Shown: in pieces, positions 1,928-26,471 of the stretch
How positions within the stretch are numbered: position 1 is the first letter of the stretch
Layout of the letters: every line of letters starts with the position of its first letter
Origin: a virus
Virus record (IMG/VR): IMGVR_UViG_3300006929_000096
Location: 1 to 26,471 of that record
DNA length: 26,471 nt
Direction: 5' to 3' (one strand)
The notes under the pieces: model-generated
Database searches by the model: none
Told to the model about the DNA's origin: nothing
What the model saw: only the letters and a program-made list of their open reading frames with translations
Made by a program: the position numbers and the translations under genes

Positions 1928-3054
1928 TATTCAGCAAACCCTCCGTCATAGCCGCCATCCTCATCGCCGCCAAACTCGCCAGGGTCAAAACCTTGGCCGA
2001 AATCCTCCGCAAACGAACCGTAATCAGCGATATCGTTAATGCTAACAACGTCGGCTGTATCATCCAGGTATTGACCGCCGCCGAGAGCGTCGAAAGCCCC
2101 TTCGGGGTCTATACCGAATCCGCCCAAGTAATCTTCGCCGGGGTCTTGGTCGCCAATAGCTTTGTTGTAGACTTTGGCTATTTTTAACGGTGTGCTTAAA
2201 AATCCGCCGAATGGAAGGCCAAAAATAATGGATGCCGCAAGCTGTGACGCTGGCGACAGTTGGTCGTCCATGCCGGGTGCGTTTGCCTGATCGCCGGTAT
2301 CGGCGTCGTTGGGATCAATCACGCTTGCCATCGCTGCGGCGGGGATATCCCCAACGCCCCAAATCGCTGGGTCCGACCAGATTGTGGAATCGCTCGTTAC
2401 AGAACGCGGGCGGCTGGTTGTTGTGCGTGGTGCTAAAAGGCCGGTCGCGGCGGCTGGTGTTGATGCGGAAATCGGTATGCCAAAATCGTCGTATTGGAAC
2501 GGACTAGCCGGTAACCCAAAAGACGCTGCCGCTGCGGTCGGTGCCGGGGCTGTGACAGGACCGCCGCGACCAAGGATTGGGTCAGGCAACCGTTCAATCG
2601 CGGCTGATGCGTCGAATATCGCTTGCAGGCGGCCCATCTGTTCCGCAGTCGGGCGCGAAAGAATCGGGTCAGCGGGCGGCGCTGGCTGACTTGCCCGCAT
2701 CTCCGCGATGACCGCCGCCGGGGGTAGAAATTTAACTGATTTGTACGGCGTGCCTGTCGCCTTGTCGGCGTATGTCGAGCCGCCGATTTCTTCTTCCAGC
2801 GCGGCGGCTTTGTTAATAGTGGCGTAGTTTTCTTGGCTATGCGGCTGGCCGGTTAGCAGGTCAGGATCAGGATTTTGATCCGACAGAGCGTAAGCGCCAA
2901 AGTCGAACCCCGGCCATTGGTATGTTTCACGTTCCTCGCCCTCTAAACCCAACTGATTTAGCTTTTGCAGCCGATAATCCGGCTCTGATATTTTGCCTGA
3001 AAGATAGTTCCAGGTGAGCGCATCCAGATGCGGCGCTGACGGATCAAACGACAT
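1927..3054 (-). CDS. phage protein with acidic Gly/Asp-rich C-terminus (375 aa), downstream of TerL
   Basis: I do not recognise a family. The N-terminal ~75 residues look folded (MSFDPSAPHLDALTWNYL start, with helical and Tyr/Trp-rich segments). The middle (about 90-260) is Ala/Pro-rich and probably flexible. The C-terminal ~60 residues are a Gly/Asp/Glu-rich acidic tail. The ATG at 3054 overlaps the TerL stop by 11 bases. An in-frame upstream start would add 25 Arg/Thr-rich residues that lie inside TerL and look like read-through. The stop is coupled to the 35-aa basic gene. The position after TerL suggests a virion or scaffold-like role, which is inference; no portal fold is visible. Confidence 0.75.
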   Translation of the reverse strand: MSFDPSAPHLDALTWNYLSGKISEPDYRLQKLNQLGLEGEERETYQWPGFDFGAYALSDQNPDPDLLTGQPHSQENYATINKAAALEEEIGGSTYADKATGTPYKSVKFLPPAAVIAEMRASQPAPPADPILSRPTAEQMGRLQAIFDASAAIERLPDPILGRGGPVTAPAPTAAAASFGLPASPFQYDDFGIPISASTPAAATGLLAPRTTTSRPRSVTSDSTIWSDPAIWGVGDIPAAAMASVIDPNDADTGDQANAPGMDDQLSPASQLAASIIFGLPFGGFLSTPLKIAKVYNKAIGDQDPGEDYLGGFGIDPEGAFDALGGGQYLDDTADVVSINDIADYGSFAEDFGQGFDPGEFGGDEDGGYDGGFAE

Positions 3055-4450
3055 ACGACGTATCCGGCGTAAAATGACGGTTCCAGGCGTATCGCGTGCC
3101 GTGCGCGCCGACGACTGCGTTGGATGCAAACGTCAAGCAGAACGCATCTGCTAAATCAGGCGATTTAATGCCGCGCTTGCGCATCTCATCCTTGCTTTCA
3201 ATCTTAATTTTGCCTGAACTGGTGAATGCGAAGCGCGGAGCGGCTAATTCGGCGACCAACATCTGGTCGTCGGGAATGTGGCAGTCTTTTGCCTCAAACC
3301 ATTCGCGGCAGCGATACCAAAGCTCATCGCGCAGCCGCATGTATTTCTGACCCATACTGGCGCTTTCGGCGACGTTGATGCCGCGCGCCGGGAGATCAAG
3401 TTCGATGCAACGGTCAACGACGCCCGCGCCGATGCCAATTACGTCAATACAGATTTCTTCAGGGCGGTCCATGATGGGGGTCGCGTCATATTCGGCCTGG
3501 ATGATGCCGCACAATTCCATCGTTGATTTGTCGCGCCAAGTCTTGGGCGGCTCCAACAGCGTGTTGCCACGGCGTTTCGCAAGTGCGGACCTGTCGCTGC
3601 CGTAGCGGGCGCAATCGACGCCCCATATTACGGGAGCCGTTTCCGATGCTTCAACGTCGCGTACTAAGGCCGCCTCGATGAGGTGCAGCGGCACAAGCGT
3701 ATCCTCGTCCGCCTGCGGAAACTCGCCCAAAACGCGGACGCGATAACTGTTACTGCTTTCGCCGTAGCGCAGGCCCATGTCCCTGATGAAATCAGGGCTA
3801 ACCAGTGGGTTATCCTTGCAGCTGACCCGGCGGGTCCACCAATCTTGTGAAAGCTCCGTATGGGTGCGGTAGAAAAAGCCGCTGGCGCGCACAGGGTTGC
3901 CAAGCATTAGCGTGGTTGCGTTGTGGCCGCTCATGCTGCCCGCCGCGCTCTCAAATACCTCTTCGGGAACGCCGCTGGCTTCATCGACTATAAGAAGCAC
4001 GTTCTCGCTGTGGACGCCCGCCAAGGATTCGGGGCGCTCCCTGCTACTTGTACGGGCGCTGCAAAAAGCCTCCGTGGGGCTGGATTTCAGTACAATTCTG
4101 TCGCTGGTGGCCTCGAATAGCTGATTAATGGCAGGGGGTAGTTCCTTTAAGCGGCTTTTTGTTTCCGCGAAAAGTGCGTCATAAAGTTGCGCGGCCGTGG
4201 GGGCCGTCACGACGACCTTGGCCGGGTAGCGCGTGGTCATAAACCAGAGCAACAAAGTTGCGGCGCAGCTTGACTTGCCGACGCCGTGGCCGCTGCGGAT
4301 GCTTAACCGACGTTCGCCGCTGGCGATGGCACGCATAACGTCTGCTTGCCACGGGAGCGGTTCCATGCCGATGACGTTGGCGCAGTAGGCAACAGGATCA
4401 TCGCGGTAACGGGCAATGAATGCGGCCCATGCTGAATTTTTTTCAGACAT
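3044..4450 (-). CDS. terL: terminase large subunit (packaging ATPase and nuclease)
   Basis: This is the DNA-packaging motor: an N-terminal ATPase translocates DNA into the prohead and a C-terminal RNase H-like nuclease cuts the concatemer. From the ATG at 4450 (468 aa), Walker A is SGHGVGKS at 53-60 and Walker B is LLIVDE at 152-157. The nuclease acidic residues fit Asp279 (GVDCARYG), Asp336 (IDVIG) and Asp432/435 (SPDLADAF). Length is normal for the family. The frame is open upstream to a GTG at 4516, but those 22 residues look non-conserved and no Shine-Dalgarno precedes either start, so the start is uncertain. It lies unusually far (192 bp) from TerS. Confidence 0.95.
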   Translation of the reverse strand: MSEKNSAWAAFIARYRDDPVAYCANVIGMEPLPWQADVMRAIASGERRLSIRSGHGVGKSSCAATLLLWFMTTRYPAKVVVTAPTAAQLYDALFAETKSRLKELPPAINQLFEATSDRIVLKSSPTEAFCSARTSSRERPESLAGVHSENVLLIVDEASGVPEEVFESAAGSMSGHNATTLMLGNPVRASGFFYRTHTELSQDWWTRRVSCKDNPLVSPDFIRDMGLRYGESSNSYRVRVLGEFPQADEDTLVPLHLIEAALVRDVEASETAPVIWGVDCARYGSDRSALAKRRGNTLLEPPKTWRDKSTMELCGIIQAEYDATPIMDRPEEICIDVIGIGAGVVDRCIELDLPARGINVAESASMGQKYMRLRDELWYRCREWFEAKDCHIPDDQMLVAELAAPRFAFTSSGKIKIESKDEMRKRGIKSPDLADAFCLTFASNAVVGAHGTRYAWNRHFTPDTSYVV

Positions 4451-4642
4451 TTTTTGAAAATGCGTCCCAAACGTGCGCGGATGGTATAAAAATAGTATCG
4501 CCCCGCCGCGCGTCACGAAGGGGGGGGGGTCGTATCACATGATACTATTAGCGCCTGATATTCCAGACGTTCGCACACAAGGCGCGACACATACCCAATG
4601 ATATCAAAGGTTTAGTGTGTGCGTTCGCAAATAACTCGCAAA
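4451..4642. promoter_or_regulatory. repeat-rich intergenic region between terS and terL
   Basis: This 192-bp gap separates two genes that usually abut. It holds a run of ten G (4520-4529). A 9-bp inverted repeat, AATAGTATC (4491-4499) and GATACTATT (4541-4549), flanks the run, and a smaller hairpin GTATCA/TGATAC lies at 4532-4545. Near 4624-4644 are two copies of the TTCGCAAAT-type motif that is also found in the attP region. No convincing gene lies here. It probably carries regulatory sites for TerL, but no promoter could be assigned with confidence. Confidence 0.5.
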
Positions 4643-5116
4643 TCAGCTTTTCGATCCGACTGTTTTCCCGATTGGCACCACGTTCTCGGCATCAACTGGC
4701 GCTTTAGCCAGCGTTTGCAGTGCGGATAGATGTTCTTCCGCGCTAGATTCATGCGTAACACGTTGTTTTTCAACGAATAATCCGGCCAAGCGACCCAGCT
4801 TTTCGAGCGATGAGGCCAGAGCTGCGGGATTGCCGCCCGCCTCGGCCAGCGCAGCCGCCCGACGCAGCCCGCTCCCCACTTCCTCAAGCGTTATCTGCTG
4901 GAAATCGGACTGTTGCTCTTTAATTTCCTTTATTTTTGCGGCGACCTTGTGGTTCTCTCGCACCAATTCGTGCGCAGTCCGGCCTATTGTTTTCTCGGAC
5001 ATTTTCTCACAATTATATACATCGCGGTATGCCTGAGAGGCATTGCCGCCGTTCGACACATATCTCCGGGCGAATTTCTCCTGCTTTAAGGTTAAATTAG
5101 GGTAACCGTTCGGCAT
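4643..5116 (-). CDS. terS: terminase small subunit
   Basis: This is the DNA-recognition subunit of the packaging terminase (Terminase_2 type). Residues 8-60 match the family's N-terminal helix-turn-helix: LTLKQEKFARRYVSNGGNAS, then a Tyr-rich helix and the T-I-G-R-T-A-H-E-L segment. The remainder is helical, as expected for ring oligomerisation, with a variable C-terminus. Two adjacent ATGs occur (5119 and 5116). GAGGG just upstream is better spaced for 5116. A - strand terminator immediately precedes the gene, so packaging genes form a separate transcription unit. TerL follows after a 192-bp gap. Confidence 0.88.
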   Translation of the reverse strand: MPNGYPNLTLKQEKFARRYVSNGGNASQAYRDVYNCEKMSEKTIGRTAHELVRENHKVAAKIKEIKEQQSDFQQITLEEVGSGLRRAAALAEAGGNPAALASSLEKLGRLAGLFVEKQRVTHESSAEEHLSALQTLAKAPVDAENVVPIGKTVGSKS

Positions 5117-5127
5117 CATTCCCTCAC

Positions 5128-17305: not shown

Positions 17306-17333
17306 AACCCCGGCAATGCCGGGGTTTTGTGTT
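17306..17333. terminator. bidirectional terminator between the early operon and integrase
   Basis: The stem AACCCCGGC/GCCGGGGTT (17306-17314 and 17318-17326) has a 3-base AAT loop. TTTT follows on the + strand; on the - strand a CTTTTTTAG tract follows. It serves both convergent units. Confidence 0.85.
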
Positions 17334-18460
17334 TAGGCGAACGCCTTAGCGTGTCGTTCGCTGATTTCTTTGTCACGCCGGGAGTCATCGAGCCAGTGAC
17401 CATAAATATCGATTGTTGTGCTTATGTTGGCATGTCCCATCAGGCGAGAGACAACACCAATTTCCTCACGCGCATTAAAAAGTAAAATCGACGCGTAATA
17501 ATGTCGCAAATCGTGCCAACGTATGCGCGGAACGCCAGCCCTGTCACAAGCCTTATGTAGTATTTTCTCTCGCCAATTATTGTTATACCCGTGAGTTCCT
17601 ACAGTAGAAGGAAACACTAAATTTTTAGATCGCTGCGCTAGCGGCTGCGACAATTTCCACAAACGCAGATCATCAACCAGTTGTGGGTTCAAATTAACGG
17701 TGCGATACCCTGCCAAAGTTTTGGGCGGGCCGACGCTCCTATCCTGCTTTAATGATTTGTTGACTGTTACGTGTCCCGTCGTCAAATCGATGTCGTCCCA
17801 AGTGAGGGCTAATTGCTCACCCATGCGCAAGCCCGTTTCAGTGGCAAACTTGATTCTCAATCGATAATCCGTAACGTTCGCACGATTGGATTTGCCGTTT
17901 TCGATTATTTTTTTGATATCGTCTTTTGAAATCCGATCCATTGGTTGCGATTGTTTGATGGGTTTTTTCGGCTTTTTCACAAACGTCGGATTGCTTGGGA
18001 TAATTTCACATTCATAAGCCCACTTGAAAAAGCCGTGTAGAGCGCCAAACCATTTTTTTCCAGTTGTCCACGCACGCTCTTTATACAGCTCGTTGATAAT
18101 TTCGTTTTTGATATGCCCCACGCGAATTTCCCCGACGCGCATATCGTTGATCTGTTTTTTGTCGATGACATATTCACCAATCGATTCGAGCTTTATCTGC
18201 TTCTCAATAACTGATCTTTCAACAAGCTCTTTTCGCTTCGCCCGCCCCATTTCGTGTTCGATATATTTGACAACCAAATCCTTGAACAGCGGAGTCAATG
18301 TCGGGTCGGCATATTCACCGCGTGTTAAATATTGCTTGTTCACGTTCTTAAGCAACGCACGTGCCGCGCGCTTGCCGTCAGGCGTTTTTGGGAATCTTTT
18401 TTCGCGCCCATGTGGGCGGCAATCCGCTATATAGTGCGTTTTAGTTGTTCGTATTTTCAT
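17333..18460 (-). CDS. int: tyrosine-family phage integrase
   Basis: A site-specific recombinase that integrates the phage at attB. The catalytic set is complete: Arg212 (GLRMGEQ), Lys247 (PPKTLAG), His316 and Arg319 (HDLRH), His343 (MGHANISTT) and nucleophile Tyr353 (DIYGH). The N-terminal ~165 residues hold an arm-binding segment and a SAM-like core-binding domain. At 375 aa it is typical. GAGAGGAG precedes the ATG at 18460. The promoter just upstream carries a 15-bp palindrome. The neighbouring non-coding region is a candidate attP. Confidence 0.95.
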   Translation of the reverse strand: MKIRTTKTHYIADCRPHGREKRFPKTPDGKRAARALLKNVNKQYLTRGEYADPTLTPLFKDLVVKYIEHEMGRAKRKELVERSVIEKQIKLESIGEYVIDKKQINDMRVGEIRVGHIKNEIINELYKERAWTTGKKWFGALHGFFKWAYECEIIPSNPTFVKKPKKPIKQSQPMDRISKDDIKKIIENGKSNRANVTDYRLRIKFATETGLRMGEQLALTWDDIDLTTGHVTVNKSLKQDRSVGPPKTLAGYRTVNLNPQLVDDLRLWKLSQPLAQRSKNLVFPSTVGTHGYNNNWREKILHKACDRAGVPRIRWHDLRHYYASILLFNAREEIGVVSRLMGHANISTTIDIYGHWLDDSRRDKEISERHAKAFA

Positions 18461-18846
18461 AATGCAACTCCTCTCAATGCAGTGTATATATAGTAAATAT
18501 TATTTACCTTACAAACAAAAAAATGATGTCCGCACCGATTTGCGAATTTCATTTTCTGCGAGAGATTTGCGAATTATTTGCGAAATAGACGGGAGAGCGA
18601 CATTATGGATGATACTAACTATTTGTAATTTAACGATAATAATGTCTCTCCGCGTTTTATGGGTGTTGCGCCCTGGATGCGAACATGACCCAAAATAACC
18701 TTTCGCAACATCAAGGACTTACGCTGCACCTCGCAGAAAACGGTCATTTTTCTGTCGTACACCAGTATACTACGATGTAGGTCGATGGTCAAAAATGTAC
18801 CGTTTTCTTGCGAGTATTTTGCGAAGTTCGCAAATGTGTGCGGGCA
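18461..18846. other. candidate attP region (non-coding, repeat-rich)
   Basis: A 386-bp stretch without genes lies between int and the lysis cassette. ATTTGCGAA-type motifs occur at 18537-18548, 18564-18575 and 18576-18586, and as a perfect inverted pair TTTGCGAA-G-TTCGCAAA at 18818-18834. Two larger inverted repeats lie between: GGAGAG(CG)ACATTAT (18592-18606) with ATAATGTCTCTCC (18639-18651), and GAAAACGGTCATTTTT (18736-18751) with AAAAATGTACCGTTTTC (18791-18807), around the palindrome AGTATACT (18764-18771). Arm-like sites outside with inverted cores inside mirror lambdoid attP layouts. The exact crossover core cannot be set without attB. Confidence 0.65.
18485..18514 (-). promoter_or_regulatory. 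integrase promoter with embedded 15-bp palindrome
   Basis: On the - strand, TTGTAA (18509-18514) and a TATATATA box (18485-18492) are spaced 16-18 bp. The spacer contains a perfect palindrome, GTAAATA-T-TATTTAC (18493-18507 forward), a likely operator for int control. Confidence 0.55.
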
Positions 18847-25650: not shown

Positions 25651-26471
25651 TTTATTTTTACCCTAAAAACACGAGTCCCTGTTTGTGTAACACCACCGAA
25701 AGCGCTTTTTTCTTGGCCGAAATATTGTCGCCAAGTTAGACGGTTAGGATTTAGCGTGTAGGGTTCTACATCATCGCGGACAAATCTATTTTTCTGTTCA
25801 TCAAAGCGCGATGCTTTCTTGCCGTGGACGAATATATCTTCCCAATTTGTATATAAATGCCAAGCTTCTTCCGCACCCGCAAGATCACCAAAATTGGCAT
25901 CGGCCCATGCTTCCATAAACTGGACTTTATCTTTTGCATTTTGATATGCGGCCAGAGTCCCCCTAATAATGCGGCGGTTTGCCTCTGGCGATTTGTCTGG
26001 TCCGGGTCCAGCCCCTTTAAACATTGCAACGTCTCTATCTGACGCGGCACCCGGCAGACCTTGCCTCATTAGAGGGGTTGTGGCGTCTTGAATTGCAAAC
26101 ATTGTTTCTAAGTCTGGGGAAAGTGCGCCCATTGCCCTGGACCCCGGAATTTTGAACCCCGCACCCATTTTGCCGCCGTTGGCAACGTAGCTATCCATAA
26201 CAGCTTCAAACTGCTTAAATTTTTCTGCCATCGATGCAAGCGGCACTACTTGCTCTCTTAAAACTGCCAGTCTTTTTTCTGTGTTTTCCCGATTCTTTGC
26301 ATACGCCTCGTTTTGGGAGGCTGGAGGTAAGACAGAAATCGAGCGCGGCAGTTCGCCTGACGGCCAAAATTTCGCGCCACGCGCTTCGGCGGGGGCAAAA
26401 GTAGGACTAGCAGGTGGCGCAGCAGGTGGCGCAGCAGGTGGCGCAGCAGGTGGCGCAGCAGGTGGCGCAGC
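25647..26471 (-). CDS. virion-associated protein, 5' end missing (274 residues visible)
   Basis: The frame is open from 26471 to the stop at 25647, so the gene is cut by the window edge. The first visible residues are five exact copies of Ala-Ala-Pro-Pro, then a Pro/Ser-rich linker, a charged helix (about 50-70) and a mixed domain containing ADANFGDLAGAEEAWHLYTN and a Trp-Arg-Gln-Tyr-Phe segment. A GTG at 26246 could start a shorter protein, but the continuous upstream reading frame with sensible residues argues against it. The downstream gene is coupled (ATGA). It is probably a structural or ejected protein. Confidence 0.7.
   Translation of the reverse strand, partial: AAPPAAPPAAPPAAPPAAPPASPTFAPAEARGAKFWPSGELPRSISVLPPASQNEAYAKNRENTEKRLAVLREQVVPLASMAEKFKQFEAVMDSYVANGGKMGAGFKIPGSRAMGALSPDLETMFAIQDATTPLMRQGLPGAASDRDVAMFKGAGPGPDKSPEANRRIIRGTLAAYQNAKDKVQFMEAWADANFGDLAGAEEAWHLYTNWEDIFVHGKKASRFDEQKNRFVRDDVEPYTLNPNRLTWRQYFGQEKSAFGGVTQTGTRVFRVKIK
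26412..26471. repeat. 12-bp tandem repeat, 5 exact copies at window edge
   Basis: The unit AGGTGGCGCAGC repeats five times exactly and runs to the last base. On the - strand it encodes Ala-Ala-Pro-Pro. The true copy number may be higher because the window ends here. Confidence 0.9.

Follow-up and report, generated by a model that had tools for sequence, protein, structure and literature searches.

Phage P1 circularises its terminally redundant DNA by Cre recombination at loxP, beside pac, and the cosB element of phage lambda also uses IHF. Recombination of the attL × attL type is known from the bench. The way in which a temperate phage whose terminal repeats are short circularises its linear DNA for integration is, to our knowledge, poorly explained. 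Lambda attL, as measured on NC_001416, consists of the overlap, the IHF site, 8 bp and then tandem arm sites 10 bp apart. It is competent for synapsis only with exactly two arm-core bridges (PMC4880445). Sinorhizobium phage phiM5 has been described as temperate (PMC10386132).

The window (the whole stretch of DNA analysed here, a linear virus record of 26,471 bases) is probably a fragment of a genome. Between its terS and terL genes lies what, judged from sequence, is very probably a second, attL-like site of the integrase that this phage encodes. Compared with lambda attL (core, IHF site H', arm sites P'1-P'2-P'3), the parts occur in the same order and orientation, with a 7-bp overlap, tandem arm sites spaced by roughly one turn of the helix and an IHF-to-arm distance of exactly 9 bp, against 8 bp in lambda. 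Unlike lambda attL, the gap site lies inside the phage and not at a prophage end, has a core-to-IHF distance about 9 bp shorter, carries two arm sites, and does not share its overlap with attP of the same phage. Like loxP in P1, it sits beside the packaging region, where a tyrosine recombinase could circularise DNA. It differs from the P1 system in that the integrase is the only recombinase on the contigs (one tyrosine recombinase on each integrase-bearing contig searched), and in having arm sites and an IHF site where lox is a simple 34-bp site. An IHF consensus in a terminase-adjacent packaging region is shared with lambda cosB, but the gap repeats match attP arm sites instead of any known terminase sites, and the gap also contains a core-type dyad.

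TerL of phiM5 is 54% identical to that of the window, and an element composed of a C-run, a G-run and an AT-rich stretch is common to both. In phiM5 an exact 357-bp direct terminal repeat ends just past this element. By analogy, the element is presumed to be a packaging or terminus element in the window, where the second-site unit adjoins it, just inside; the gap site may likewise lie within a direct terminal repeat. In phiM5 itself, which has an integrase and terminal repeats, no second integrase site was recognisable in the terS-terL region. The phiM5 octamer CTGACAGC was ruled out as an arm site because of its approximately 40 copies genome-wide (L119/L277, 44 kb), a strong over-representation that may be Chi-like. 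Contig L058 ends at 18389, a few bases from the position homologous to the phiM5 repeat boundary, and this may be a true genome end; contig ends were set aside as evidence for genome ends, as the cases were too few. A search of the open-access literature found no description of such a second integrase site.

An inverted repeat linking the terS-terL gap and attP

An earlier note on the window reported that the reverse complement of positions 4624-4644 matches 18564-18584 at 20 of 21 bases. The match (GATTTGCGAGTTATTTGCGAA and GATTTGCGAATTATTTGCGAA, respectively) is exactly as described, inverted and about 14 kb apart. Each copy carries ATTTGCGA twice, 11 bp apart, in agreement with the report of two motifs at equal spacing, and the gap copy does overlap the terS stop, covering the last two bases of the codon; the gap extends for about 190 bp to the terL ATG. 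The motif ATTTGCGA was found seven times in the window, with 2.4 copies expected: three in the attP cluster and one there on the opposite strand, two in the terS-terL gap, and one at 17504 within int. No other non-tandem 20/21 repeat pair of this length was found within the window. An equally good pair was present in 4 of 60 first-order Markov shuffles of the window, so the match by itself is suggestive and not decisive. The claim that chance is very unlikely holds once relatives are included, because other phages share a different sequence pair between the same two places, which places the repeat far beyond chance. The IHF-type site in the gap is the sole exact match to the IHF consensus in the window.

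The cluster at 18.5-18.85 kb lies directly upstream of int, and its arm-type repeats flank a 220-bp middle. This cluster, in which a core beside int is flanked left and right by arm sites, is attP. A homologous layout with tRNA-derived cores was found in G007-G009 and G016, in which the tRNA 3' end lying between the two arms identified attP. The host integration target of the window phage was not found. An AlphaFold model of Int (pLDDT 83) has strands at residues 2-5, 9-13 and 20-24 and a helix at 27-47, and was matched by Foldseek to full-length lambda Int (1z1b) with an E value of 7.5e-10. The catalytic residues aligned. In the model Int is of the lambda type and comprises an N-terminal domain, a core-binding domain and a catalytic tyrosine recombinase domain.

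Table 1 Features of the terS-terL gap and of the attP-int region in the window
Feature	Position	Strand	Description
terL, terminase large subunit	3044..4450	-	ATG at 4450; ORF open to GTG 4516
C-run + G-rich segment + AT-rich stretch	4483..4529	-	C-run at 4520-4529; conserved upstream of terL
Core-like site	4570..4586	-	CGCGC-CTTGTGT-GCGAA; 7-bp spacer at 4575-4581; attP counterpart TGCGC-CCTGGAT-GCGAA
IHF-type site	4602..4614	-	TAAACCTTTGATA; reverse complement TATCAAAGGTTTA = WATCAANNNNTTR
Tandem integrase arm-type pair (reported 21-mer)	4624..4643	-	ATTTGCGA GTT ATTTGCGAA; 11-bp spacing; 8-mers recur clustered in attP
terS, terminase small subunit	4643..5119	-	Terminase_2, PHROG 51
int, tyrosine integrase	17333..18460	-	Predicted N-terminal three-strand-plus-helix, core-binding and catalytic domains
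attP arm, int side	18538..18583	+	ATTTGCGA at 18538, 18565 and 18576; CTGCGAGA at 18557
attP core (presumed)	18667..18683	+	TGCGC-CCTGGAT-GCGAA
attP arm, far side	18805..18835	+	CTTGCGAGTATTTTGCGAA pair and inverted ATTTGCGA at 18828

Gap motifs and unit geometry in other phages

Relatives were collected via TerL. Most contigs in the comparison were metagenomic and partial, and alphaproteobacterial prophages with distant terS relatives were left out because their terminases were too dissimilar. The earlier note took absence from close relatives as evidence against the site, and the ATTTGCGA pair is indeed literally absent from relatives with a terL 90-95% identical (L124-L128). Their integrase differs, however (approximately 35% identical where checked), and with a different integrase and other attP arms this absence is expected.

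The motif in the gap was instead that of each phage's own attP, phage by phage (TTTGCGAA, TTGTAAAC, TTGGCACN, TTGTGACC, TGTGATGC and TAGGCGCC). G008, which has another integrase, carries GATTTGTAAACTATTTGTAAAC at the equivalent terS-terL position; its 8-mer TTGTAAAC occurs seven times in 29 kb, with two copies in the gap and five in attP, where the copies form pairs 11 bp apart with 252 bp between pairs. When gaps were searched without bias against their own genomes, the best matches fell in attP (the top four in G008 and the top two in G009, G007 and the window). In the reverse search from attP, the gap ranked first in the window, G008 and G009, and second in G007. Across 19 phages the sum of own-attP/own-gap matches was 277, whereas the permutations averaged 172 (s.d. 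11.6); this excess of 9 s.d. was equalled in none of 20,000 permutations, and likewise in none of 20,000 with a thinned set. Counted genome-wide in the relatives, as the note had proposed, the motifs were concentrated in attP (3-6 copies of the 8-mer) and the terS-terL gap (usually 1-2), with 0-2 copies elsewhere (0.2-1.2 expected). The one exception to the gap count, L039, has one mismatch there. No arm pair was evident in the gap of the G002/G004 branch, which has a single TTGTAAT only, and the own-gap ranks were 2 and 4; the core-like dyad in the G004 gap nevertheless matches G004 attP.

In G016, whose integrase is 48% identical and whose terminase genes are unrelated, an arm pair lies beside TATCAATGACTTA in the terS-terL gap, and the unit is flipped as a whole with respect to terL. 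This case established the geometry of the unit: the arm pair (11-bp spacing), 9 bp, and the IHF consensus. A scan for geometry only, with no motif sequence supplied, recovered the known cases together with L218, a contig without an integrase, and a new integrase locus, L069. In L069 the terS-terL interval contains the predicted pair (TTGGCAC), and TTGGCACT was found in six copies in attP, one in the gap and none elsewhere. A looser scan (6 of 9 IHF letters, two mismatches) gave many chance matches and served only to nominate L064 and L082, both of which were verified. A loose motif match in L067 was discarded because it fell within coding sequence.

From 80 integrase loci, all 23 that hold both terS and terL had the arm pair in the gap between them, and the unit was found with two unrelated terminase types. 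The exact IHF consensus is present in the window and much of its clade; no IHF consensus was recognisable in the gap sites of L035, L038 and L042. Pelagic relatives without an integrase (terL 56% identical) have terS joined directly to terL with zero gap, and HTVC034P, of the other terminase type, is also without a terS-terL gap. A literal scan of the collection for the ATTTGCGA pair returned 36 mostly unrelated contigs, of which L107 alone had it at the terS-terL gap (ATTTGCGATTTATTTGCGA at 3768-3786; terL 51% identical, terS unrelated). In this 4.8-kb contig without an integrase, ATTTGCGATTTATTTGCGA is oriented opposite to the window, and no IHF site lies at 9 bp.

Other repeats and rearrangements were also seen. 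Tandem 12-bp repeats of the GCGCCACCTGCT type occupy 26408-26471 of the window, up to the contig end, and are possibly why the contig stops. Arrays that are possibly iterons were observed in G004 (L157 1061-1141, five copies of GGCGTAACAG at 12/27-bp steps) and G008 (L162 9565-9801, six copies of CATCACAG). In L209, L211, L136 and L219 the packaging locus is rearranged, and an unrelated coding region precedes terL in place of terS and the gap.

Core-like dyad and overlap

Beyond the IHF site, almost every gap carries two 5-bp half-sites in inverted orientation, separated by a 7-bp spacer. In 84% of 31 gap sites the centre of such a dyad lies 35.5 or 36.5 bp from the start of the IHF site; at other offsets the same dyad was found in 0-3% (maximum 13%). 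In the window the centre of the 5-7-5 dyad is 36 bp away from that start, and its half-sites have one and no mismatches of 5 with the attP core. In most phages checked, the gap half-sites had 0-1 mismatches with the attP or tRNA core. The attP core of G008 is asymmetric, and only half of the half-site match is seen there; the gap dyad of G016 matches its tRNA core poorly. A 'B' motif of G007-G009, ATGACCGTCAGGTWA, was considered as the site of a separate regulator and rejected, since in the gap it makes up the dyad's left half. Inverted copies of this 14-mer, which starts the gap dyad, also lie at the two outer edges of the G007-G009 attP (L161 14157-14170 and 14505-14518, which is G008; L164).

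The attP core in the relatives is a tRNA stem, and the 7-nt loop serves as the overlap. In every phage compared, the 7-bp overlap of the gap differs from that of attP, for example TCAGG-CTCATAA-CCTGA in attP against TCAGG-TAGATGA-CCTGA in the gap of G007/G009, and ACGGG-TTCGAGC-CCCGT against ACGGG-GTATGCC-CCCGT in L056. With such an overlap the gap site should not recombine with attP, and could do so with its own copy. The difference favours circularisation weakly, because a mere binding site would differ by chance too.

Possible functions of the gap site

In sequence terms, the gap site is present, has a defined geometry, co-varies with attP and is widely conserved. Int very likely binds it, and we infer with high confidence that it does so together with the host protein IHF. 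The best explanation overall, which we consider moderately probable, is a complete second attachment-like site whose two copies would be recombined with each other by Int and IHF. Circularisation or monomerisation of the DNA by this recombination is the favoured function, at about an even chance. If the linear genome is terminally repetitive, a copy at each end would allow incoming DNA to be circularised before integration; alternatively, adjacent copies in a multimer would be resolved to circles, as by Cre at the loxP beside P1 pac. If packaging proceeds as in phiM5, the site would stand at both virion ends, and Int-mediated recombination between the two copies could close the genome.

The main rival, which we regard as possible but unlikely, is a regulatory complex of Int and IHF that masks or organises the packaging region without recombination, for example to block terminase cutting of DNA meant for integration, or packaging of an unexcised prophage. 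The position of the site next to the packaging element, the conserved IHF site, the use of IHF by lambda cosB and the retention of the IHF site in some relatives without a clear arm pair are all consistent with such a complex. The constant 7-bp spacer between inverted core-type half-sites is the geometry of strand exchange and argues against it, as does the inversion of the whole unit in G016. The same two features bear on the shared operator for late packaging genes proposed in the earlier note: this may describe a function of the site, but the 7-bp-spaced dyad exceeds the need of an operator and the G016 unit is inverted.

That note had also suggested a second integrase or Xis site. The integrase part is strongly backed by a motif that tracks the attP arms across many phages and by the IHF and core-like sites in the gap; an Xis site is less probable, since 11-bp tandems of the motif stand to either side of the attP core, like integrase arm sites. 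Recognition of both repeats by another DNA-binding protein of the phage, whether Xis/RDF, an RHH or Cro-type regulator, or TerS, is accordingly improbable: such genes are present in the window and sequence alone cannot name the binder, but the flanking tandems (10-12 bp) follow the fashion of arm sites, the core-like half-site co-varies as well, and the unit accompanies two unrelated TerS/TerL sets. An evolutionary relic, left by an integration module once at the packaging locus or by attP pieces copied there and now without a role, would fit the degenerate parts in a few relatives, and is still less probable given that several arm specificities match their own attP and that the geometry is fixed across diverse phages. 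A chance repeat or ordinary operator, for which the shuffled windows leave some room, is contradicted by all the comparative evidence and can be dismissed.

The complete attachment-like site, if it functions as proposed, would provide a recombination site within the terminal repeat, served by the resident integrase, that explains circularisation before integration, and attL × attL-type recombination would acquire a role in nature. In temperate phages from two or more terminase lineages, a single integrase may serve both for integration at attP and for circularisation or monomerisation through an overlap-incompatible, attL-like site at the packaging locus, within the terminal repeat, a proposal we hold to be evenly balanced. 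Even if purely regulatory, the site would connect integration and packaging directly and physically. As the element is easily recognised from its geometry and its self-match to attP, the terminase gap predicts the attP arm motifs, and the reverse, in uncultured phages.
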